A DNA stretch of 64,000 bases from Micromonospora pallida (lineage in GTDB: Bacteria; Actinomycetota; Actinomycetes; Mycobacteriales; Micromonosporaceae): NCBI RefSeq assembly GCF_900090325.1, contig NZ_FMHW01000002.1, forward strand, positions 682,001 through 746,000, written 5' to 3'. Every line of letters starts with the position of its first letter. Positions within the stretch are counted from its first letter, which is position 1. The translations under genes and the position numbers were made by a program. Shown here in pieces: positions 1-12,725 of this stretch. The notes beneath the pieces were generated by a model. It was not told the DNA's origin. It did no database searches and saw only the letters and a list, made by a program, of their open reading frames with translations.

Positions 1-3000
1 GCACGGCCGCCGGGTTCGGCGCCCGTCGCTGCCCGTGCCACATCAGTTCCTGCTGGTACGTCGCCGGCGCGCTCTCCTCGACCGGCGCGGCCCTCGTTTC
101 GGGCGCGACCTCCCCGCGTGGCGCGACCTCCGCGTCGGGCGCGGCCGGCTCGACCGGTGCGCTACGTCCGGTCGCCGGGCTCTCCTCGACGGGGGCAGAT
201 GGTCCGGTCGGGGTGGTCTCCCCGGTGGGGGCGGTAGTGGTCAGGGCGGTCGTCAGGGCCCGGATGCCGGGCGCCTGGAGGACCCGGTGCACGCCGACCT
301 CGGTGCCGAGCAGTCCGGTCAGCCGGTTGGCGAGGCGGACGGCGGCCAGCGAGTGTCCACCGGCGGCGAAGAAGGGTACGTCCAGCGGCAGTCGGGACAC
401 GCCCAGCTCGGCGCACCAGGCGTCGTGGACGAGCTGTTCGGTGCCCGGCTGCGGACGCTGGTCGCCGGCCGGCGCCTCCGGGGCAGGCAGCCGGGCCACG
501 TCGATCTTGCCGGTGCCCCCGGTGGGCAGCACGTCCAGCAGCACCCACGCCCGGGGCACCAGGTACGGCGGGAGCCGGTCGGCCAGGGCGGCGGTCAACC
601 GGGCCGTGCGTTCGGCCGGTGGCTCGCCGTCGTCGACCGGCACCACGTACGCGGCGAGGTACGGCTCGTCGCCCCGGTCGTGCCGGGCGACGACGGCGGC
701 CTGCCGCACGCCGGTCAGCCCGGCGAGCACAACGGCTGCCTCACCCGGCTCGACCCGGTGGCCGGCGATCTTGACCTGGTCGTCGAGGCGGCCGAGGAAC
801 TCCAGGTTCCCGTTGCCGCGTACCCGTACCCGGTCACCGGTGCGGTACATCCGCGCTCCCGGCACTGGCGAGTACGGGTCGGGCGGGAAGGCGGCGGCAG
901 TCTCCGCCGGCCGACCGAGGTAGCCCCGGGCCAGCCCGTCGCCGCCCACGTACAGCTCGCCCACCGCGCCGGGCGGGACGGGCCGGCCGTCCGGGTCCAG
1001 CACGTACAGCCGATGGTCGGCGGCGGACACGCCGATGTCGACCGGGCCGGTCCCGTCGGGCGGCACCGGCCCGGCGGTGGTGACGATGGTGGCCTCGGTC
1101 GGGCCGTACGCGTTGATCACAGTGGCGGGGAAGCCGGCCGGCGGCCGGCGGCGGAGCTGGCTGCCCCCGACCACCAGGGTCCGCAGCGTGGCGGCGGGTG
1201 GCGTGGGCAGCGCGAAGACCAGCTCCGCCAGGGGCGCCGGCAGGAATGCCACGGTCACCCGGTGTTCGGCCCACCAGGCGCGCAGCGCGGCCGGGTCGGC
1301 GCGCACCGCGTCCGGTACGAGGTGGACGGTCGCCCCGGCGGCGAGCGCCGGCCAGATCTCGGCGAGGTTCGCGTCGAACCCGAGTCCGAGCCCGTGGGCG
1401 ACCACGTCCGAGCCGGTCAGCCCGAGCGCCTCCGCGTGCCAGGTGACCGACCGGACGGCCGCGCGGTGCGGCACCAGCACCCCCTTGGGGTGTCCGGTGG
1501 AGCCAGAGGTGTAGACGCACCAGGCCAGGTGCTCCGGGCCGAGGCCGGCGGTCGATGCGGGGCCGGCTGTCCGGAACGCCGGGAGGGTGTTCGACTGCGG
1601 GGTGGCCGCCGGCGACCGATCCTCGTCGGCATCCTCGTCGACCGTGAGTTCGGTGACCTCCTCGACCGTGAGCCGGGGCGGGTTCGTCGGGTGGTCGACC
1701 GCCGTCGAGGTGACCAGCAGCCGGGCGCCGCTGTCGGCGAGCAGGGCGGCCAGCCGGGCGGGCGGCAGATCGGGGTCGAGCGGCAGGAACGCCGCCCCGG
1801 CCAGCAGCACCCCGAGCTGCGCCGCGACCAGTTCCGGCCGGCGGGGCAGCAGCACCGCGACCAGGTCGTCCGCCCCGACGCCGGTGGCGGCGATCCGGCC
1901 GGCCAGCGCCTCGGCCCACACCCGCAGCTCCCGGTACGTCCAGCGGCTCCCGCCGCCGACCACCGCCGGTGCGTCCGGCGTCCGACCGGCCTGCCGGAGA
2001 ACCAGATCGTCCAGTCGACCGGCCTGCCCGGGGACAAGCTCGGGGCGTTCACGGACCGGCTCGGGGCGTTCACCGGCCGGATCGGCTCGGTGGCGGGCCG
2101 GGGCCGGCCGCGCGGCTGTCCCGTTCGGCGCGGCGTCTTGCCCGACGGCGTCGGCCAGCCGGGACAGCGGGAGGTCCGGGTTCCGGGTCAGCCGGTCGAG
2201 CATCCCGAGCCAGTCGTCGAGGAACCGGCGTACGGTCACCGGATCGAACACCTCGGTCCGGTACTCGACGTGGCAGCGGACGGTGTCGGTGTGCGACAGG
2301 TAGACCATGAGGTCGACCGGGGCCTTGTCCAGCCCCACCGGCAGCGGTTCGGCGGTCACCTCGGGCAGGTCGAAGGCGAACGCGCCACCGGTCTCGTACT
2401 CCACGACGACGTCGAAGAGCGGATTCCGGCCGGCCTCCCGGTGCGGGGCGAGCGCACGAACCAGGGCGTCGAACGGTACGGCCGCGTGTTCGTACCCCTC
2501 GGCGGCGGTGGCCTGGGTGCGGGCGAGCACCTCACGGAAGGTCGGGTCGCCGGTGAGGTCCAGGCGCAGCGGCAGGGTGTCGACGAAGAAGCCGACCAGG
2601 TCGGCGGTGCGGTCGTCCCGGCCGCTGAACCCGGTGCCGACCACCAGGTCCGGCTGGCCGCTGAACCGGAACAGCATGACGCCGAACGCGCTGAGCAGCG
2701 TGGTGAACGGGGTGACCCGTTCGGCCCGGCTGAACCGCCGGATCCGGTCGGTCAGCTCGGCCGGAACCTCGGTGAAGACGCTCCGGCCGGCCGCGGAGGG
2801 CAGCGCCGGGCGGGGCAGGTCGGAGGGGAGGACGAGGGTGGGAGGTGGGGGGTCGAACCGGGTCAGCCAGTACCCCAGGTCCTTGTCGTCGACGTCGCGG
2901 CGTCCGGCGGCGGCCCGGGCGAGATCCGGGTAGCTGACCGGCAGGTCGGGCAGCTCCGGGGTCGTACCGGTCACCCGGGCCCGGTAGGCGGCGGAGACCT

Positions 3001-6000
3001 CCCGGGTGAGCACGGCGTACGAGGTGCCGTCGGTGGCGAGGTGATGGAACGCCAGCACCAGCACGTGGTGCTCGGCGGAGAAGCGCAGCAGGGTGAACGC
3101 GAACACCGGCCCCTCGGCCAGGTCGAAGACCCGCCGGCTCTCCCCGGCCATCGCCGCCGCGACGGCCGACTCCGCCGCCTCTCCGGTCACCTCCCGTACC
3201 GGCTCCTCCGCCGGCCCAGCCAGCTCCCGTACCGCCTTCTTCGCCGGCCCAGCCAGCTCCCGTATTGGCAGCTCCACCGGCACCGTCGGCCGGACGACCT
3301 GGCACGGCTCGCCGTCGACCTCCCGGTACGTGGTGCGCAGCGGCGCGTGCCGGGCCACCACGTCGGCCAGCGCGCCACGCAGCGCCGCGACGTCCAACGG
3401 ACCGCGCAGCCGCACCGCCACCGCCTCGGTGTAGGCGGGCGTGCCAGGGTGGAGCTGCTCCGTCAGCCACAGCCGGCGTTGGCCGGGCGTGAGCGGGGCG
3501 GTCTCCTCGCGGTCCACCGCCCCGCCGGCCACCGGCGCGGTACGGCGGCGCGGCGTGGCCCGGCGCAGCACGTCGATGAAGGGCAGCCCGGCCCGGACGG
3601 CCGGGGCGGGCACGCCGAAGTCCACGAAGCAGGCGATCTCGTCGGCGCCCGCGTCGAGCACCGCGTCCAGCACCGGTCGGCAGCTCTCCGGGGTGCCGAT
3701 CAGCGCCCGCTGCTCGCAGTATCGCTGGTACGCCCGGGACAGCATGAACCGGACGTCGTCGTCCGGGGTGTCGGCCAGGTCGATGCTCATGCCGAGGCTG
3801 TTGACCACCTGCCCGAGCAGGTGCAACGACGAGCGCAGGTACGCGCAGAACGGCTCGAACGCCGCCTCGCGTACCCGGTCGAGGTCGTCGCCGAGGTACG
3901 TGTGCAGCAGCACCACCACCCGGCCGGCGGCCGGGTCGAGGCCATGCTCGGCGCGGGTACGCCGGTACAGGGCGATGTTCTCGGCGAGCTGGGCGACGTC
4001 CTGGGTCATCAGGTTCGTGACCACCCCGACGTCGCGTCGCGCGGCCTCCCGGTAGCTGTCCGGGTTGCCGACGATCGCGGTGAAGAACGGCGGGGCGTCC
4101 TGCACCGGCCGGGGGAAGAGCCGGACGTCGATCGGGTCGCCACTGCCGGACCGGGCGGCGACCGCATCGCCGCGCCAGAGCCGGCGCACCGTCTCCAGGT
4201 GCTCGTACATCACCTGCTTGTGCCGGCCGAAGTTCTCCGGCTGGAAGACGAAGTCGTTGGCGTGCCAGCCGGGCGCGCAACCGAGCCCGACCCGGCCACC
4301 GGAGAGGTTGTCCACCATGGACCACTCCTCGGCCACCCGGACCGGGTGGTGCAGGGGCAGTACGACCGAGCCGGCGTTGAGCCGGATCCGGCTGGTGCGT
4401 ACGGCGAGTGCGGCGGCCAGCACCGACGGGTTCGGGAAGATGCCGCCGAACGAGTGGAAGTGCCGTTCCGGGAACCACACCGCGTGGAACCCGTGGGTGT
4501 CGGCGTACTGCGCGGCGTCGAGGATCAGGCCGTACCGGTCGTCGGCGTCCTGGTCGGGATAGTCGCCGAAAAAGTACAGGCTGACGTCGACACTGTCCGC
4601 GCCCGGCCCTGGTTCTGCGTCTGGCCCTGGTTCTGCGTCTGGCCCTGGTTCTGCGTCCGGCCCCGGGTCCGCGCCCGGCTTCGGTTCCGTAGCGGGCTGC
4701 GGGTCGGGGCCCGGTGGCACCCTCGTCGGCACCGGCCTCGGAGCCGACGTCGGGACAGCAGCCGGCGCCGGGGCGGAGTCCCTTGCGGGGACGGAGCTCT
4801 GTGTGGGGATGGCGCCTTGTGCGCCGGTGGCGGCCGTGGCAGGCAGAGCGCCAGCCGGCAGAGCGCTGACCGGCAGAATGCCGGCCGGCTGGCCTGCCGC
4901 TCTGAGCAGGGCGAGTTGCTGCTGCATCAGGTCGAGTTGGCGGTGGACGATGGCGCTCAGGTCGTGCGCCGGCACCGCCGGCACTGCCGGCATCGTCGGC
5001 ATCGTCGGCCTGAGCGTGCCGGTCTCCGCAGCCTCTCCCGGTCGTGCGACACCCCCTCGATCAACTCCAGATGCGGCGAGTCGGGGTGTCCCGGGTGCGT
5101 CGACACCCCGACTTGCCGTATCTCGAGGCACCCCCACCCGAGACAGGCCAGGCCCGCTCGAAGAAGGGCCGGTCGGGGAGAGGCCGGTCGGGGAGAGGGC
5201 GGTCTGGGCGGGGTCGGTCGGGGAGGGGGCGGAGCCGGTGACGATGCGTTCGGCGAGTCGACGTGGCGTGTCGACAGTCTCGAAGAGGTCCCGGATCGGG
5301 ACCCGTACCCCGTGGGCCTGGTCGATCTCGCGAGACATGCTGATCAGCAGCAGCGAGTCCGCGCCGAGGGCGAAGAAGGTCTCGTCGGGGCCGACCGCCG
5401 TGACGTCCAGCCCCAGCTTGTCGGCGGTTAGCGTACGCACCCAGTCCAGCACCGCCTCGTCGGCCACCAGGTCACTGGCCGACGGCTCCCCGGTCAGCAC
5501 CGGCTGCCCGGACACCGGGCCGGCGACCGGGGCTCCGGCCACCGGAGTGGATGCCTCGGTGTGGGCGGCGGGGGCCGGGGCGGTGACCGGGGCTTCGGTC
5601 AGCGGGGCGGCAGTGTCGGGTACGGCGTCCGGTCGAGCGGCCCGCACCGCCGGAGCCGGGCCGTCGGCGGTCCGCGCTGCGCGGGCACGGGTACCCCCTG
5701 TCGGGTCCGGGTCGGGGTCGATCCAGTAGCGGCGGTGCTGGAACGGGTACCCGGGCAACGACACCCGGCGTCCCCCGCAGCCTTCGGTGATCGCCGTCCA
5801 GTCGACCGGTGCGCCCGCGCAGTACAGCTCCGCCACGGCCCGCCATACCCCGTCGATCGGGTCGGCGTCGCGCCGCTGGGACGGCACCCAGGTCGCCGTC
5901 GACCGGGTCGCCCGGGCCAGCCGGGTGAGGGCGGCGTCCGGCCCGGCCTCGATGATCGTCCGGCAGCCCTGGTCGACGATCGTCCGTACGGCGGCGTGGA

Positions 6001-9000
6001 ACTCGACGGCCCCGCGGGCCTGCCAGTACAGGTGCTCGGCGTCCGGCTGCCAGCCCGGCTCGCGGACTCGCCCGTCGACGGTGCTGACCACGGGCAGTCG
6101 GACCGGCCGCAGGTCGACCCGACCGGCCAGGGCGGACAGCTGGTCCCGGAGCGGCTCGATCGCCGAGCTGTGGAAGGCGCGGGTCACCGGCAGCCGCCGG
6201 GTCGACAGTCCCCGCCGCGCGGCCCGGTCGGCGACGGCAGTGACCTCGTCGGGCGACCCGGCCAGTACGTGCCGGTCGGGGCCGTTCACCACGGCCACCT
6301 CCACGGTGCTGCCCACCACCAGGTCGTCGACGGTCGCCCGGTCGGCGAGCACCGCCAACATCGCACCCGGCCCCAGCGCGTCCTGCATGAGTCGGCCGCG
6401 CCAGGCGGCGAGGCGTACCGCGTCGGCGAACGGCAGCGCGCCGGCCACGGCCAGGGCGGCGTACTCGCCGACGCTGTGGCCGAGCACGAGTTCCGGGACG
6501 ATCCCCCAGGAGCGCCAGAGTTCGGCCAGGGCCAGCCCGACGACGACCAGTACCGGCTGGGCCAGGTCGGTGGGGACCCCGGCGGGGTCGTCGGGGGTCT
6601 CCCGCAACCGGGCGAGCAGGTCACCACCGACCGCGTCCCGGTACGCGGTGGCGGCCTCCGCCAGGACGTCCCGGACCACCGGGAACCGTTCCGCGAGCGG
6701 CAGCAGCACCGGGCGCAGGTCGCCCTGCCCGGGGAAGGCCAGGGCCAGCGGTCCGGCGGGTACCGACCCGGTGACCACCGTGTCCGGGATGGCGGTGCCG
6801 CCGACGACCCGGTCCAGTGCCGAGGCGAGAGCGGCGGGGGAGTCGCCCCGTACGACGAGGCGGTGGCGCAGGTGCCGGCGACCCCGTCCGGCGGTGGTCA
6901 CCAGGTCGGCCAGCATCAGGTCGGGGTGGGCGCGTAGGTGGTCCCGGTGGCGTGCGGCGAGCGCGGTGAGCGCCGCCGGGTCGGCCGCCGACAGCGGTAG
7001 CAGGCCGGGTGCGGGGGACGTGGTGGCGGCTGGTGGGGCGACCTCGGCGGGCGGCTGTTCGACGATGACGTGGGCGTTGGTGCCGCCGACGCCGAGGGCG
7101 CTCACCGCCGCGCGGCGCGGCGTGTCGCCGACCGGCCAGCCGATGGGGCTGGTGGTGACGGTGAAGGGGGCCAGGTCGACCACCGGCCGGGTGAAGTTGA
7201 TCTGCGGGGGAAGCTGGCCGGTCCGGACCGCCAGCACCGCCTTGACCAGGCCGGCCATGCCGGCGCAGCTGTCCAGGTGGCCGATGTTCGCCTTGACCGA
7301 GCCGAGCAGCGGCCGGGCCGACGCGTACGCCTCGGCGAGGGCGTGGTGTTCCACCGGGTCGCCGAGCGCGGTGCCGGTGCCGTGCGCCTCGACGTACCCG
7401 ATGGACGCGGCGGACACGGCGGCGTTCCGCAATGCCTGCCGGATCACCTCGACCTGCCCGGTCACGCTGGGCGCGGTGAAGCCCACCTTGCCCGCGCCGT
7501 CGTTGTTCACGGCCGAGCCGAGGAGCACCGCGTGCACCGGGTCCCCGTCGGCAACGGCGCGGGCGTACGGCTTGAGCACCACCGCCGCGACCCCGTTGCC
7601 GCCGACGGTGCCGTCCGCGGCAGCGTCGAAGGGACGGCACTGGCCCTGCGCGGAGAGGATCGAGCCCGGCGTGTGGTGGTAGCCGGTGACCTGGGGGACG
7701 TGCACGGCGACCGCGCCGGCCAGCGCGAGGTCGGCGTCCCCGGCGAGCAGCGCGCGGGCCGCCAGGTGCACCGCCACCAGCGAGGTGGAGCAGGCGGTCT
7801 GTACGGTGATCGCCGGACCGGTCAGGCCCAGCCGGTACGCGACCCGGGTGGCGAGGAAGTCCGGCTGGTTCCCCAACGCCGCGCCGACCACGGTGGCCGG
7901 GTCGGCGGCGCGGGTGGCCGCGTCGAGGTTGTTCCGCAGGTAGGTGTGGTGGGTGTAGAGGTTCATCCCACCACCGGCGAACAGCCCCACCCGGGCCCGG
8001 TCGCGGTCCCCGGCGTACCCGGCGTCCTCCAGGGCGTGCTGGCAGGTCTCCAGAAATAGCCGGTGCTGTGGGTCGAGCAGTTCGGCCTCCCGGGCGCTGA
8101 TGCCGAAGAAACCCGCGTCGAAGCCGGCGACGTCGTCGAGCACCCCGCTGGCCGCGACGAACCCGGGGGCGTCGGCGTCCGTCACCCCGGCGGCGGCCAG
8201 TTCGTCGGGGGTGAAGAAGCGGACGCTCTCCACCCCGGCGAGCAGGTTCGACCAGAACTCGTCCACGCTGGCGGCGCCGGGGAAGCGGGCCGCCATTCCG
8301 ATGATTGCGATCCGGTGGTCCCGGTCGACCGGGGCCGGGCCGGCGGAGTCGGCGGGGGCGGTGTCGGTGAGGTGCCGGACGAGCGCGTCGACGGTCGGGT
8401 GCGCGAAGAGCGTCGGCGCCGGGACCGGCCGGCCGAGGACCTGCTCGAGCCGGGACCGGAACCGGACGATCTCCACCGAGCCGATGCCGAGTTCCCAGAA
8501 CGGCAGCTCGCTGTCGACCGGGCCGTCGAGCAGGTCGCCGAGCGCGTCCAGGACCGTCCTGCGCACCGTCGTCCGGCCGGGTGGCCCGATCGGGAGCGAA
8601 GCCGGCGCGGGGACGCTCGAGACAACGGGGGACGGGGAGGGCGGCGCGGGAGCGGATGGGGCAGCCGGGTGCGGAACGGGCGTGGGGGAAGGCAGCGGGG
8701 GAGCAGTCGGGGCAGCCAGGGGTGGGGAAAGCGACGCGACTGGGGGCGGGACCGGTGGGGTGGTGGCGGTCGGGGCCGGGCCGGGTCGGCCGGTGTCGAA
8801 CTCCCCGGCGGTGAACCGGCGGCGCAGCGCCGCCCGCTGGATCTTCCCCCCGGTGGTACGGGGAAACTCCTCCGCACGCACCGCCACGACCCGGGCCGGG
8901 GCGGTGCCCCAACGGCGGGCGACGGCGGCGGTGACGTCCCGGGCCACCTCCTGCGGTGACCGTCCTGCGGCGGGGTCGGGCACGTGGAACACGACCAGGG

Positions 9001-10522
9001 ACTCGCTCCCGGTGCGGGAGTCCGGTACGCCGCAGGCGGCGACCAGCCCGGCGGCCACCCCGGGCACCGTCCCGGCGACCTGCTCGACCTCGTGGCAAAG
9101 CAGGTTGTGTCCGTTGAGGATGATCAGGTCCTTCTCCCGGCCGGTGACGGTGATCCGTCCGTCCACCAGGTACGCGAGGTCGCCGGTGTCCCACCAGCCC
9201 CCGGGACGCAGGGCGGCCCGGGTCGCCTCGGGGTCGGCGAGGTAGCCGGGGGTGAGCCGGGGCGAGCGGACCTGGAGCCGACCGATTCGCCCCTCGGGCA
9301 GCACCTCGTCGTCCGGGTCGACGATGCGCACAGTGGCACCGGGGGCGGGCGCGCCGACGGCGAGGAACTCGACGCAGTCGGCGGGGTCGTCGTCGGCGGT
9401 GGCCCAGGCCAGGTCACCGTCGAGGCTGGCAATGCGGACCCGCTGTCGGCAGCCCGGCTCGGCCAGGGACGCGAAGGTGATCGCGGTGCTGGTCTCGGAC
9501 ATGCCCCAGGCGGGGGTCATCGCGGCTACCGGCACGCCGGTCGCCGCCACGAACGCGTCGAAGGTCTCCGGCAGGCACTGCTCGCCGCCGCTGACCATCC
9601 GCCGGACGTGCCCCAGCTCCCACCGGCGGTGGTCCGGGTCACGGACCACCGCGTCGGCCACCAGCCGGAGTCCGAAGTTCGGCGCCCAACTGTGGGTGAC
9701 CCGGTGTCGGCGCATCAGCTCGAGCCAGCGCAGCGGATCGGCCAGCACCCGCTCGGTGTCGACGTGCACGCTGGTCGCGCCGAGGAACACCCCGCCGAGG
9801 TGGTAGAGGAGCAGCCCGGCGACGTGGTCCACCGGGAGCCAGTTGAGCAGCACGTCGCCGGGGCGGATGTCGAGCATCTCCCGCGCGCCGACGGCGTACT
9901 GCGACAGGCCGAGGTGGGTCAGTGGGATGATCTTCGGGGTGCCGGTGCTGCCGGAGGAGAGTTGCAGCACCGCCACCTCCTCCGGCGTGGCCCGGTGGTC
10001 CCCGTCCGGCCGGGGCCGGTGGCCGTCGACCAGCTCGGTCACGGTGACGACCCGTCCGCCGAGCGGCAGGTGACGCAACCCGGCCGCGTCGACGGTCCCG
10101 GCGACGACGAGTGGTTCGCCCAGCGTCCGCCAGACGTGCCGGAGCGCGTCGAGCGCCGGGGAGTTCCCGGCGTGCTCGGGCCCGGCGGCGGTGGTCAGCG
10201 GAGCCACCCCGGCCAGCACGCAGCCGAAGAACGCCGGCCAGTACTCGACGGCCGCGCCGACCCGCAGGATCGCGTACCCGCCGGCGGGCACGCCCCGCGC
10301 CCGCAGGCCGTCGCGGACCGCGCGGGCCCGGCCGAGCAGGTCGGGGTGGGCCAGGAACTCGGTGCCGCCGTCGGCGGCGACCAGGTGCAGGCCCGCGTCG
10401 GGGAACCGGTCCGCCGCGCGGGCCAGCGCCTCGCCCACCGTCCGGGGGTGCGTCGGGTCGTCAGGCAGGTCACTGCCGTGGCTGACGGCGGGACGGCGGT
10501 CGGCGGGCTGGGGAGGGGTCAC
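1..10522 (-). CDS. Hybrid PKS-NRPS megasynthase with acyl-AMP ligase loading and luciferase-like monooxygenase, 3' end outside window
   Basis: One uninterrupted reading frame of at least 3507 residues. Order by approximate residue: acyl-AMP ligase 1-570 (SSGSTGTPK near 188); ACP1 with LGIGSVE, Ser 682; ketosynthase 735-1155 with Cys 911, His 1047 and His 1082; acyltransferase 1255-1575 with GHSVGE Ser 1350 and AFHS at 1449-1452, the malonyl-CoA type; ACP2 with GADSLLL, Ser 1723; Pro/Ala-rich linker; luciferase-like flavin monooxygenase 1978-2310; condensation domain with HHLATDG at 2493; adenylation domain 2840-3300 (YTSGSTGHPKG at 3004); PCP with GGHSLAA, Ser 3391. It should activate an acid, extend it once with malonate, oxidise the beta-keto intermediate and join it to an amino acid. 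My manual alignment of the adenylation pocket gives roughly D-A-A-F-V-G-A-I-V-K, which I cannot assign. No KR, DH or TE is seen. The GTG start overlaps the MFS stop (GTGA), with GAGG about 10 bases upstream. Confidence 0.9.
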   Translation of the reverse strand, partial: MTPPQPADRRPAVSHGSDLPDDPTHPRTVGEALARAADRFPDAGLHLVAADGGTEFLAHPDLLGRARAVRDGLRARGVPAGGYAILRVGAAVEYWPAFFGCVLAGVAPLTTAAGPEHAGNSPALDALRHVWRTLGEPLVVAGTVDAAGLRHLPLGGRVVTVTELVDGHRPRPDGDHRATPEEVAVLQLSSGSTGTPKIIPLTHLGLSQYAVGAREMLDIRPGDVLLNWLPVDHVAGLLLYHLGGVFLGATSVHVDTERVLADPLRWLELMRRHRVTHSWAPNFGLRLVADAVVRDPDHRRWELGHVRRMVSGGEQCLPETFDAFVAATGVPVAAMTPAWGMSETSTAITFASLAEPGCRQRVRIASLDGDLAWATADDDPADCVEFLAVGAPAPGATVRIVDPDDEVLPEGRIGRLQVRSPRLTPGYLADPEATRAALRPGGWWDTGDLAYLVDGRITVTGREKDLIILNGHNLLCHEVEQVAGTVPGVAAGLVAACGVPDSRTGSESLVVFHVPDPAAGRSPQEVARDVTAAVARRWGTAPARVVAVRAEEFPRTTGGKIQRAALRRRFTAGEFDTGRPGPAPTATTPPVPPPVASLSPPLAAPTAPPLPSPTPVPHPAAPSAPAPPSPSPVVSSVPAPASLPIGPPGRTTVRRTVLDALGDLLDGPVDSELPFWELGIGSVEIVRFRSRLEQVLGRPVPAPTLFAHPTVDALVRHLTDTAPADSAGPAPVDRDHRIAIIGMAARFPGAASVDEFWSNLLAGVESVRFFTPDELAAAGVTDADAPGFVAASGVLDDVAGFDAGFFGISAREAELLDPQHRLFLETCQHALEDAGYAGDRDRARVGLFAGGGMNLYTHHTYLRNNLDAATRAADPATVVGAALGNQPDFLATRVAYRLGLTGPAITVQTACSTSLVAVHLAARALLAGDADLALAGAVAVHVPQVTGYHHTPGSILSAQGQCRPFDAAADGTVGGNGVAAVVLKPYARAVADGDPVHAVLLGSAVNNDGAGKVGFTAPSVTGQVEVIRQALRNAAVSAASIGYVEAHGTGTALGDPVEHHALAEAYASARPLLGSVKANIGHLDSCAGMAGLVKAVLAVRTGQLPPQINFTRPVVDLAPFTVTTSPIGWPVGDTPRRAAVSALGVGGTNAHVIVEQPPAEVAPPAATTSPAPGLLPLSAADPAALTALAARHRDHLRAHPDLMLADLVTTAGRGRRHLRHRLVVRGDSPAALASALDRVVGGTAIPDTVVTGSVPAGPLALAFPGQGDLRPVLLPLAERFPVVRDVLAEAATAYRDAVGGDLLARLRETPDDPAGVPTDLAQPVLVVVGLALAELWRSWGIVPELVLGHSVGEYAALAVAGALPFADAVRLAAWRGRLMQDALGPGAMLAVLADRATVDDLVVGSTVEVAVVNGPDRHVLAGSPDEVTAVADRAARRGLSTRRLPVTRAFHSSAIEPLRDQLSALAGRVDLRPVRLPVVSTVDGRVREPGWQPDAEHLYWQARGAVEFHAAVRTIVDQGCRTIIEAGPDAALTRLARATRSTATWVPSQRRDADPIDGVWRAVAELYCAGAPVDWTAITEGCGGRRVSLPGYPFQHRRYWIDPDPDPTGGTRARAARTADGPAPAVRAARPDAVPDTAAPLTEAPVTAPAPAAHTEASTPVAGAPVAGPVSGQPVLTGEPSASDLVADEAVLDWVRTLTADKLGLDVTAVGPDETFFALGADSLLLISMSREIDQAHGVRVPIRDLFETVDTPRRLAERIVTGSAPSPTDPAQTALSPTGLSPTGPSSSGPGLSRVGVPRDTASRGVDAPGTPRLAASGVDRGGVARPGEAAETGTLRPTMPTMPAVPAVPAHDLSAIVHRQLDLMQQQLALLRAAGQPAGILPVSALPAGALPATAATGAQGAIPTQSSVPARDSAPAPAAVPTSAPRPVPTRVPPGPDPQPATEPKPGADPGPDAEPGPDAEPGPDAEPGPGADSVDVSLYFFGDYPDQDADDRYGLILDAAQYADTHGFHAVWFPERHFHSFGGIFPNPSVLAAALAVRTSRIRLNAGSVVLPLHHPVRVAEEWSMVDNLSGGRVGLGCAPGWHANDFVFQPENFGRHKQVMYEHLETVRRLWRGDAVAARSGSGDPIDVRLFPRPVQDAPPFFTAIVGNPDSYREAARRDVGVVTNLMTQDVAQLAENIALYRRTRAEHGLDPAAGRVVVLLHTYLGDDLDRVREAAFEPFCAYLRSSLHLLGQVVNSLGMSIDLADTPDDDVRFMLSRAYQRYCEQRALIGTPESCRPVLDAVLDAGADEIACFVDFGVPAPAVRAGLPFIDVLRRATPRRRTAPVAGGAVDREETAPLTPGQRRLWLTEQLHPGTPAYTEAVAVRLRGPLDVAALRGALADVVARHAPLRTTYREVDGEPCQVVRPTVPVELPIRELAGPAKKAVRELAGPAEEPVREVTGEAAESAVAAAMAGESRRVFDLAEGPVFAFTLLRFSAEHHVLVLAFHHLATDGTSYAVLTREVSAAYRARVTGTTPELPDLPVSYPDLARAAAGRRDVDDKDLGYWLTRFDPPPPTLVLPSDLPRPALPSAAGRSVFTEVPAELTDRIRRFSRAERVTPFTTLLSAFGVMLFRFSGQPDLVVGTGFSGRDDRTADLVGFFVDTLPLRLDLTGDPTFREVLARTQATAAEGYEHAAVPFDALVRALAPHREAGRNPLFDVVVEYETGGAFAFDLPEVTAEPLPVGLDKAPVDLMVYLSHTDTVRCHVEYRTEVFDPVTVRRFLDDWLGMLDRLTRNPDLPLSRLADAVGQDAAPNGTAARPAPARHRADPAGERPEPVRERPELVPGQAGRLDDLVLRQAGRTPDAPAVVGGGSRWTYRELRVWAEALAGRIAATGVGADDLVAVLLPRRPELVAAQLGVLLAGAAFLPLDPDLPPARLAALLADSGARLLVTSTAVDHPTNPPRLTVEEVTELTVDEDADEDRSPAATPQSNTLPAFRTAGPASTAGLGPEHLAWCVYTSGSTGHPKGVLVPHRAAVRSVTWHAEALGLTGSDVVAHGLGLGFDANLAEIWPALAAGATVHLVPDAVRADPAALRAWWAEHRVTVAFLPAPLAELVFALPTPPAATLRTLVVGGSQLRRRPPAGFPATVINAYGPTEATIVTTAGPVPPDGTGPVDIGVSAADHRLYVLDPDGRPVPPGAVGELYVGGDGLARGYLGRPAETAAAFPPDPYSPVPGARMYRTGDRVRVRGNGNLEFLGRLDDQVKIAGHRVEPGEAAVVLAGLTGVRQAAVVARHDRGDEPYLAAYVVPVDDGEPPAERTARLTAALADRLPPYLVPRAWVLLDVLPTGGTGKIDVARLPAPEAPAGDQRPQPGTEQLVHDAWCAELGVSRLPLDVPFFAAGGHSLAAVRLANRLTGLLGTEVGVHRVLQAPGIRALTTALTTTAPTGETTPTGPSAPVEESPATGRSAPVEPAAPDAEVAPRGEVAPETRAAPVEESAPATYQQELMWHGQRRAPNPAAV
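3191..3275. repeat. 33-bp tandem repeat inside the condensation domain
   Basis: Two full 33-bp copies (3191-3223 and 3224-3256) and a partial third (3257-3275). On the minus strand they encode an 11-residue unit starting LAGPA and ending VRE. The copies differ at a few bases, so the duplication is not brand new, and the reading frame is kept. The repeat lies in the N-terminal half of the condensation domain, before the HHLATDG motif. Confidence 0.8.
4605..4658. repeat. 18-bp tandem repeat in inter-domain linker
   Basis: Three 18-bp copies (4605-4622, 4623-4640, 4641-4658), nearly identical. On the minus strand they encode a repeated six-residue unit of Gly, Pro, Asp, Ala and Glu in the linker between ACP2 and the luciferase-like monooxygenase. 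A flexible acidic Pro/Ala tether of this kind is normal between assembly-line domains. Confidence 0.8.
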
Positions 10523-11915: not shown

Positions 11916-12725
11916 GTGTCCGTCCACCAGATCACCGACCCTGACGACGACCGGATCGCCGACTACCGGGCGTTGACCGACGTCGAGCTGCGCACCCGGT
12001 GGGAGCCGCCGCACGGACTCTTCATCGCCGAGGGAGAGCTGGTGCTGCGGCGGGCGCTGCGCGCCGGCTACCCGCCCCGCTCGTTCCTGGTCGATGCCAA
12101 ACGGGTCGACCAGCTCGCCGACCTCGACACCGGCGACGCCCCGGTCTACGCGGCCACCCCGGACGTGCTGGAACGGGCCACCGGCTTCCACGTGCACCGG
12201 GGGGTGCTCGCCTCGTTCCGCCGCCTGCCGCTGCCCAGCCCGGCGGACCTGCTCGCCACCGCCCGACGGGTGGTGATCCTCGAGGACGTCAACAACCACA
12301 CCAATTTGGGCGCGATCTTCCGGGCGGTGGCCGCGCTCGGGGTGGACGGGGTGCTGCTCTCGCCGTCCTGCGCCGACCCGCTCTACCGGCGCAGCGTACG
12401 GGTCAGCATGGGTGAGGTGTTCGCCGTGCCGTACGCGAAACTGGAGCCCTGGCCGGACGGCCTGGCGCAGGTCCGCGCGGCCGGCTTCACGGTGCTGGCG
12501 ATGACCCCGGCCCCGGACGCGGTGCCGATCCAGCGGCTCACCGCCGACCAGCGCGCCCGCGCCGCCCTGCTGCTCGGCGCGGAGGGCGCCGGACTGAGCC
12601 GGGCCGCGCAGGCCGCCAGCGACGTCCGGGTGGTCATCCCGATGCGTCGCAACGTCGACTCGCTCAACGTGGCCGCGGCCACCGCCGTGGCCTGCTGGGA
12701 ACTGGGCCGCGACGACCCGCTCTGA
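11916..12725 (+). CDS. TrmH/SpoU family RNA 2'-O-methyltransferase
   Basis: A 269-residue protein with all three SPOUT (SpoU) motifs: NNHTNLGAIFRA near residue 127 (motif 1), LLLGAEGAGLS (motif 2), and IPMRRNVDSLNVAAATA (motif 3, forming the knotted AdoMet site). Residues 1-110 form an N-terminal RNA-binding domain typical of rRNA methylases such as TsnR and RlmB. It should methylate a ribose 2'-OH in rRNA or tRNA; the exact site cannot be read from the sequence. The reading frame extends upstream to 11736, but the GTG at 11916 is preferred because the upstream part overlaps the divergent MFS gene and a -10-like box sits just before this GTG. It ends one base into the alternative start of the PucR gene. 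Confidence 0.85.
   Translation: MSVHQITDPDDDRIADYRALTDVELRTRWEPPHGLFIAEGELVLRRALRAGYPPRSFLVDAKRVDQLADLDTGDAPVYAATPDVLERATGFHVHRGVLASFRRLPLPSPADLLATARRVVILEDVNNHTNLGAIFRAVAALGVDGVLLSPSCADPLYRRSVRVSMGEVFAVPYAKLEPWPDGLAQVRAAGFTVLAMTPAPDAVPIQRLTADQRARAALLLGAEGAGLSRAAQAASDVRVVIPMRRNVDSLNVAAATAVACWELGRDDPL

Follow-up and report, generated by a model that had tools for sequence, protein, structure and literature searches.

The window analysed here is a stretch of 64,000 nucleotides from the 7.76 Mb genome of Micromonospora pallida (assembly GCF_900090325.1, contig NZ_FMHW01000002.1, positions 682,001 to 746,000 of the forward strand). At its left end the minus strand carries a two-gene unit, in which a gene for a major facilitator superfamily (MFS) protein comes first and shares its last 4 bases with the gene for a 3905-residue polyketide synthase-nonribosomal peptide synthetase (PKS-NRPS) chain. 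The chain ends 1195 bases to the left of base 1, and this additional DNA encodes most of a terminal condensation domain. The order of the chain is acyl-AMP ligase loading domain, acyl carrier protein (ACP1), ketosynthase (KS), malonyl acyltransferase (AT), second acyl carrier protein (ACP2), luciferase-like monooxygenase (LLM), condensation domain (C1), adenylation (A) domain, peptidyl carrier protein (PCP) and terminal condensation domain (C2). The coordinates are collected in Table 1.

Table 1. The two-gene unit and the domains of its chain, in window coordinates (negative numbers count bases to the left of base 1).
Feature	Position	Strand	Basis or remark
MFS exporter, 417 aa	10519..11772	-	first gene of the two-gene unit
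PKS-NRPS chain, 3905 aa	10522 to -1195 (window part 1..10522)	-	start GTG at 10522; no stop before -1195
Loading acyl-AMP ligase domain	8753..10465	-	Pfam; nearest solved 6ulw, McyG 4r0m
ACP1 (GIGSVE)	8348..8575	-	Pfam and motif
KS	7043..8335	-	Pfam and motifs
AT, malonyl type (RAFHS)	5813..6775	-	Pfam and motif
ACP2 (GADSL)	5228..5470	-	Pfam and motif
Pro/Ala-rich linker, about 210 residues, at the class-III aminotransferase site of relatives	4598..5227	-	no Pfam domain
LLM, TIGR04020, MupA/Atu3671 family	3557..4597	-	NCBIfam; PuwE match
C1 (HHLATDG)	2123..3535	-	Pfam and motif
Amino acid A domain, code DAAFVGAIVK	473..2020	-	Pfam; code placed by hand
PCP (GGHSL)	203..445	-	Pfam and motif
C2, terminal (HHLNGDG)	1..70 in window, rest to -1192	-	Pfam and motif

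The chain is real and intact. A Pfam search matches two stretches of AMP-binding domain, three PP-binding domains, two condensation domains, a KS, an acyltransferase and a luciferase-like monooxygenase, and finds no ketoreductase (KR), dehydratase, aminotransferase, thioesterase or reductase domain. The motifs looked for are intact (TACSTS, HGTGT and NIGH in the KS; GHSVG and RAFHS in the AT, the latter of which we take to mark the malonyl type; the three carrier serines; HHLATDG in C1 and HHLNGDG in C2). The length of the reading frame is weak evidence for the chain, because an antisense frame occupies the same GC-rich DNA (window positions 2-5431, plus strand, 1809 residues, or 1858 with its left neighbour), which is probably a mirror artefact of the GC content. 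The reality of the chain rests instead on the domain matches and on the same chain being present in relatives, which also rules out a frameshift or an assembly join within it. A preliminary description of the locus had proposed a single chain from ligase to PCP with a malonyl-type AT, no KR and an adenylation pocket of D-A-A-F-V-G-A-I-V-K, and had recommended looking at the DNA to the left of base 1. The unbroken chain, the domains that it named, the AT without a KR and the pocket (its positions placed by hand) are all borne out, and the order stands up to the PCP; the PCP is not the end point, and was taken for it because the window ends there. The 1195 further coding bases supply most of the terminal C domain.

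From this order we infer a two-gene pathway, which we hold to be somewhat more likely than not. The loading domain would activate a carboxylic acid that has no amine on its alpha carbon, with a short branched, aryl or alpha-keto acid the likeliest candidate, and transfer it to ACP1; the KS and AT would add one malonate unit. On ACP2 the resulting beta-keto thioester would be hydroxylated by the LLM at its alpha carbon, and C1 would couple the acyl group to a single PCP-bound amino acid, which is perhaps hydrophobic. Finally, the terminal C domain would pass the product to a free amine or, next likeliest, close a ring, and the MFS protein would export it. The latter protein matches the NCBIfam model TIGR00900 (H+ antiporter) at 118.7 bits, below its cut-off of 319.6.

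The starter is probably a short non-amino acid, since the loading domain is of the 6ulw/McyG kind, carries the pocket motif DHVAG and has an alanine at the site of Asp235 in amino-acid A domains (placed by hand on alignments). Its best solved relatives are 6ulw (321 bits; motif DHIGG), which we take to be the keto-acid-selecting StsA, and McyG (4r0m, 277 bits; DHVGA). Structures of the fatty-acyl type score lower, with 128 bits for a fatty acyl-adenylate ligase (3pbk) and 131-133 bits for 7r7e, 7r7f and 7r7g, which are named polyketide synthase and which we presume to be fatty acyl-AMP ligases (FAALs); the HDMG motif of fatty-acyl ligases is absent. Loading of a fatty acyl group, which was assumed at first, is weakened by both comparisons, so that the acyl-AMP ligase of the preliminary description does start the chain but is not clearly a fatty-acyl ligase. 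The NCBIfam model for FAALs gives 285.5 bits against a cut-off of 600. FAALs have an insertion between subdomains that hinders transfer to CoA; over residues of about 330-375 the loading domain has no long deletion relative to 6ulw and 7r7f, and McyG is shorter there. Pfam detects no KR between the loading domain and ACP1, so the A-KR-ACP layout of a keto-acid loading module is absent here; a KR does occur in two relatives, L090 and G000b.

The relatives come from one scan with the LLM domain, of which the best 80 of 148 loci were retained and are hence the nearer ones. To these were added 19 loci picked by hand, including G000b, a second copy in the same genome, and the window itself, giving 100 rows; the stretch of L080 was too short and was not used. 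Seven rows lack a called LLM gene (L087, L154, L155, L157, L160, G066 and G112), which leaves 93 for the counts below, with two duplicates among them (L088 is identical to G109, and L150 to G083b). Genes were called by a simple composition script, which produces some broken calls, and domain assignment used phmmer, the queries being the window's own domains plus three taken from relatives. A separate search with chain residues 1685-3905 scored only the 1507 candidates sharing most words. Among the 120 best matches listed, the nearest are from Micromonospora, namely M. sagamiensis (82% over 87%) and M. echinospora (76% over all). In two genus orthologues conservation is highest for the LLM (95.7 and 90.8%) and the KS (92.1 and 85.2%), and the other eight domains fall between 69 and 86%.

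Comparison of the flanks indicates that exporter and chain form an accessory insert, because in three genomes of the same genus (G003, G082 and G123) the flanking genes (a 728-residue gene and the gene at 11916) are separated by 2.8-3.4 kb holding other small genes, and the exporter and the chain were not found anywhere in the 19.9 kb stretch. In G278 the exporter and the chain stand between the same two flanks, which supports these two genes as the core of the unit. In G269 the right flank and two small genes to the left of the chain are shared, and the 728-residue gene does not occur in the 19.9 kb fetched. Those two genes at the chain end (window positions -2773 to -1291; 265 and 230 residues) are common to the present genome and G269, occur neither beside the chain in G278 nor in the three empty sites, and are perhaps not part of the pathway. 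No third gene common to the loci compared was found beside the unit. In 65 of the 93 rows an MFS relative is encoded on the same strand no more than four genes upstream; the 28 rows in which none was found include contig ends and broken genes, and also the whole loci G017, G040a, G007 and G040b. Within the genus, 16 of 151 genomes have LLM matches at E ≤1e-140, and in 11 of these, counting the present one, identity is ≥81%; in the family the count is 36 of 150 genomes at E ≤1e-60, a looser bar that takes in stand-alone enzymes. The family of LLM chains recurs in several actinomycete genera.

By script, 83 rows have a C domain behind the PCP, either fused to the chain or encoded by the gene that follows, and 81 remain once the multimodular outgroups L158 and L159 are set aside; it is fused in 67 of these and a separate next gene in 14. 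The motif HHxxxDG is present in all 67 fused domains and in 12 of the 14 separate ones, and reads HHxxxDA in L137 and L153. As for the ten rows without a terminal C domain by script, four run off the contig (L089, L097, L119 and L139); three have genes broken in pieces with a C fragment later (L098, L102 and L148); L156 has a fused C domain, its motif ending in DA, behind a PCP without an A domain; G037 has a C gene two genes on; and in L142 the domain is seemingly absent. The window's chain has this terminal-C layout, with C2 last, its HHxxxDG intact, and neither a thioesterase nor a reductase domain.

We consider that the terminal C domain probably releases the product, either by capture of a free amine, which is our first choice, or by cyclisation. 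The nearest solved relatives of C2 are C domains of Txo2 (178 bits) and Txo1, which we take to be elongating, and TqaA, presumably a fungal cyclising C domain, scores about 36 bits. This difference in scores argues against ring closure, as does the retention of the terminal C domain in aminotransferase-bearing relatives, in which the intermediate differs. The alpha-hydroxy-beta-keto amide would nonetheless offer both nucleophiles needed, the product being a morpholine-2,5-dione if the alpha-hydroxyl attacks or a 3-hydroxy-3-acyl tetramate after a Dieckmann-type attack, and no shared third gene accompanies the unit in the loci compared; cyclising C domains are also discussed as release domains in PMC8739492. 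On balance, ring closure appears rather unlikely. We regard it as improbable that C2 hands the chain to an NRPS module elsewhere, which would make the visible chain just the front half of a longer pathway. Its resemblance to the Txo2 and Txo1 domains, and the other NRPS genes within the fetched stretches of G036 and G126, favour such a hand-over; yet the unit is often found in differing surroundings with no other NRPS genes, and 14 rows have the terminal C domain as a separate gene behind the chain.

Many relatives carry an aminotransferase before the LLM, and the window's chain lacks it. In L090, Pfam places a class-III aminotransferase between ACP2 and the LLM, and with this domain as query an aminotransferase is detected in 65 of the 93 LLM genes. 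Streptomyces and Kitasatospora chains that have it are arranged as MFS, KS-AT-ACP and aminotransferase-LLM-C-A-PCP-C; in the loci of these two genera among L093-L149 no loading domain was seen in the fetched stretch. The aminotransferase is absent from 28 LLM genes, six of which are cut or broken calls (L102, L112, L136, L139, L146 and L148), leaving 22, two of them duplicates, with chains from Micromonospora, Catellatospora and Amycolatopsis among them. In the window's chain neither Pfam nor the relative's domain gave an aminotransferase match, so the PuwE-type succession of ACP, aminotransferase and oxygenase does not occur, and the beta-keto group should remain. On a maximum likelihood tree of the LLMs (53 of the 93 rows; the 40 left out are two identical ones and others, mostly Streptomyces, that were thinned) the presence of the aminotransferase changes at least four times (bootstrap 4-5); well-supported branches require two of these changes. 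G000b contains the aminotransferase, along with a KR in the loading module, and groups beside chains without the aminotransferase, at modest support (80/87 and 80/91). The persistence of LLMs, and their continued similarity, after what would be loss of the aminotransferase suggests that they do not need a beta-amine.

Two of the aminotransferase-bearing relatives deserve description. The second chain of the M. pallida genome, G000b (G000:C2:2143494-2157389, minus strand, read from L052/L011/L053), is 4631 residues as called and has the order loader-KR-ACP-KS-ACP-aminotransferase-LLM-C-A-PCP, preceded by an MFS gene and followed by a separate 522-residue C gene; no AT was found in it by domain comparison. 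L090:551-14506 (plus strand), from Streptantibioticus silvisoli, encodes loader-KR-ACP-KS-AT-ACP-aminotransferase-LLM-C-A-PCP in one chain of 4652 residues, with a separate 512-residue C gene.

If an aminotransferase acted in trans on the window's chain, the product would be an ordinary 3-amino-2-hydroxy acyl dipeptide, the type to which microginin and bestatin belong. The 65 in-chain aminotransferases speak for such an outcome; the 389 proteins around 20 loci without the in-chain domain gave a single aminotransferase match, at the edge of the G126 stretch, in a search limited to these surroundings and not extended to the rest of the genome, and the flanks point to a unit of two genes. Amination in trans is, on this evidence, distinctly improbable.

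The LLM is a full-length member of TIGR04020 (473.4 bits, cut-off 244.45, model positions 1-340 of 341). Its nearest solved relative is 6ket, which from the match we take to be the oxygenase part of PuwE, at 414 bits over residues 3-346; the next structure scores 99 bits. The F420-linked enzymes listed give 22-40 bits, ruling out an F420-type reductase, and diketocamphane monooxygenase, presumably a Baeyer-Villiger enzyme, gives 24 bits. Given the TIGR04020 membership, the closeness to PuwE and the distance from diketocamphane monooxygenase, alpha-hydroxylation appears, by homology, likelier than Baeyer-Villiger chemistry. The preliminary description had offered both for a beta-keto thioester on ACP2; that substrate fits the domain order found (malonyl AT, no KR), and of the two reactions the first is favoured by the PuwE score and the second disfavoured by the score of diketocamphane monooxygenase. 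A Baeyer-Villiger insertion of oxygen, which would yield an O-acyl glycolyl unit or shorten the chain, is very unlikely in view of these scores (in a comparison that left out CalD and MndB) and of the family's occurrence in aminotransferase-bearing chains, where formation of such an ester would leave no ketone for amination. In PMC4219810, the aminotransferase and oxygenase domains of PuwE are assigned to the 3-amino-2-hydroxy pattern of puwainaphycins.

Several points weigh against the two-gene pathway as we propose it. The exporter is not universal among the relatives. The likeness of C2 to the Txo2 and Txo1 domains is also compatible with a partner module at another locus. In G036 (L042/L043) the A domain between C1 and the PCP is missing entirely, and other NRPS genes lie a few kb away; either an A domain serves it in trans or the copy is dead. 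Beta-amination in trans may take place, the genome having been searched for aminotransferases only at the locus. Lastly, some LLMs are credited with Baeyer-Villiger-type chemistry in PMC8739492.

A broader reading, which we put forward tentatively as a possibility, is that Micromonospora holds a minimal, accessory two-gene class that makes alpha-hydroxy-beta-keto acyl amino acid derivatives (with a reductone-like, possibly metal-binding head), has a dedicated terminal-C release, and descends from a line that made 3-amino-2-hydroxy acyl units and then lost the aminotransferase. If this is true, the LLM acts on the beta-keto form, and hydroxylation would precede amination throughout the family. 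The order of the two steps in 3-amino-2-hydroxy acid pathways could be settled by comparing natural chains that have the aminotransferase with those that lack it, and the fate of so short a chain at a terminal C domain would become apparent. A seemingly complete pathway of two genes could moreover be expressed and its product read directly. A licence-limited literature search, made without MIBiG, found no description of the architecture or the product.

Among known systems, the loading domains of 6ulw and McyG (4r0m) are the nearest solved relatives of the window's loading domain; StsA differs in having a KR after this domain, where the present chain has none. PuwE of the puwainaphycin pathway is the closest match for the oxygenase, with an LLM-type enzyme between PKS and NRPS modules, but it contains an aminotransferase and is part of a longer lipopeptide pathway, whereas the window's chain has no aminotransferase, a single amino acid and a terminal C domain. 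The floridanemamide and tychonamide pathways (Athmu residue; PMC13252402) have a predicted alpha-keto-acid starter and an aminotransferase-monooxygenase pair; these features resemble L090 and G000b, while the products are long peptides with thioesterases in their pathways, and KR, aminotransferase and thioesterase are all missing from the window's chain. In fabrubactin biosynthesis, the flavin-dependent monooxygenase FbnE is proposed to make alpha-hydroxycarboxylate units (PMC12971057); FbnE is comparable by description only, and fabrubactin differs in being a siderophore with other chelating groups. The chain described here is a variant of the known LLM-bearing PKS-NRPS type, built of known parts, in which the aminotransferase is lacking and a terminal C domain replaces the thioesterase.
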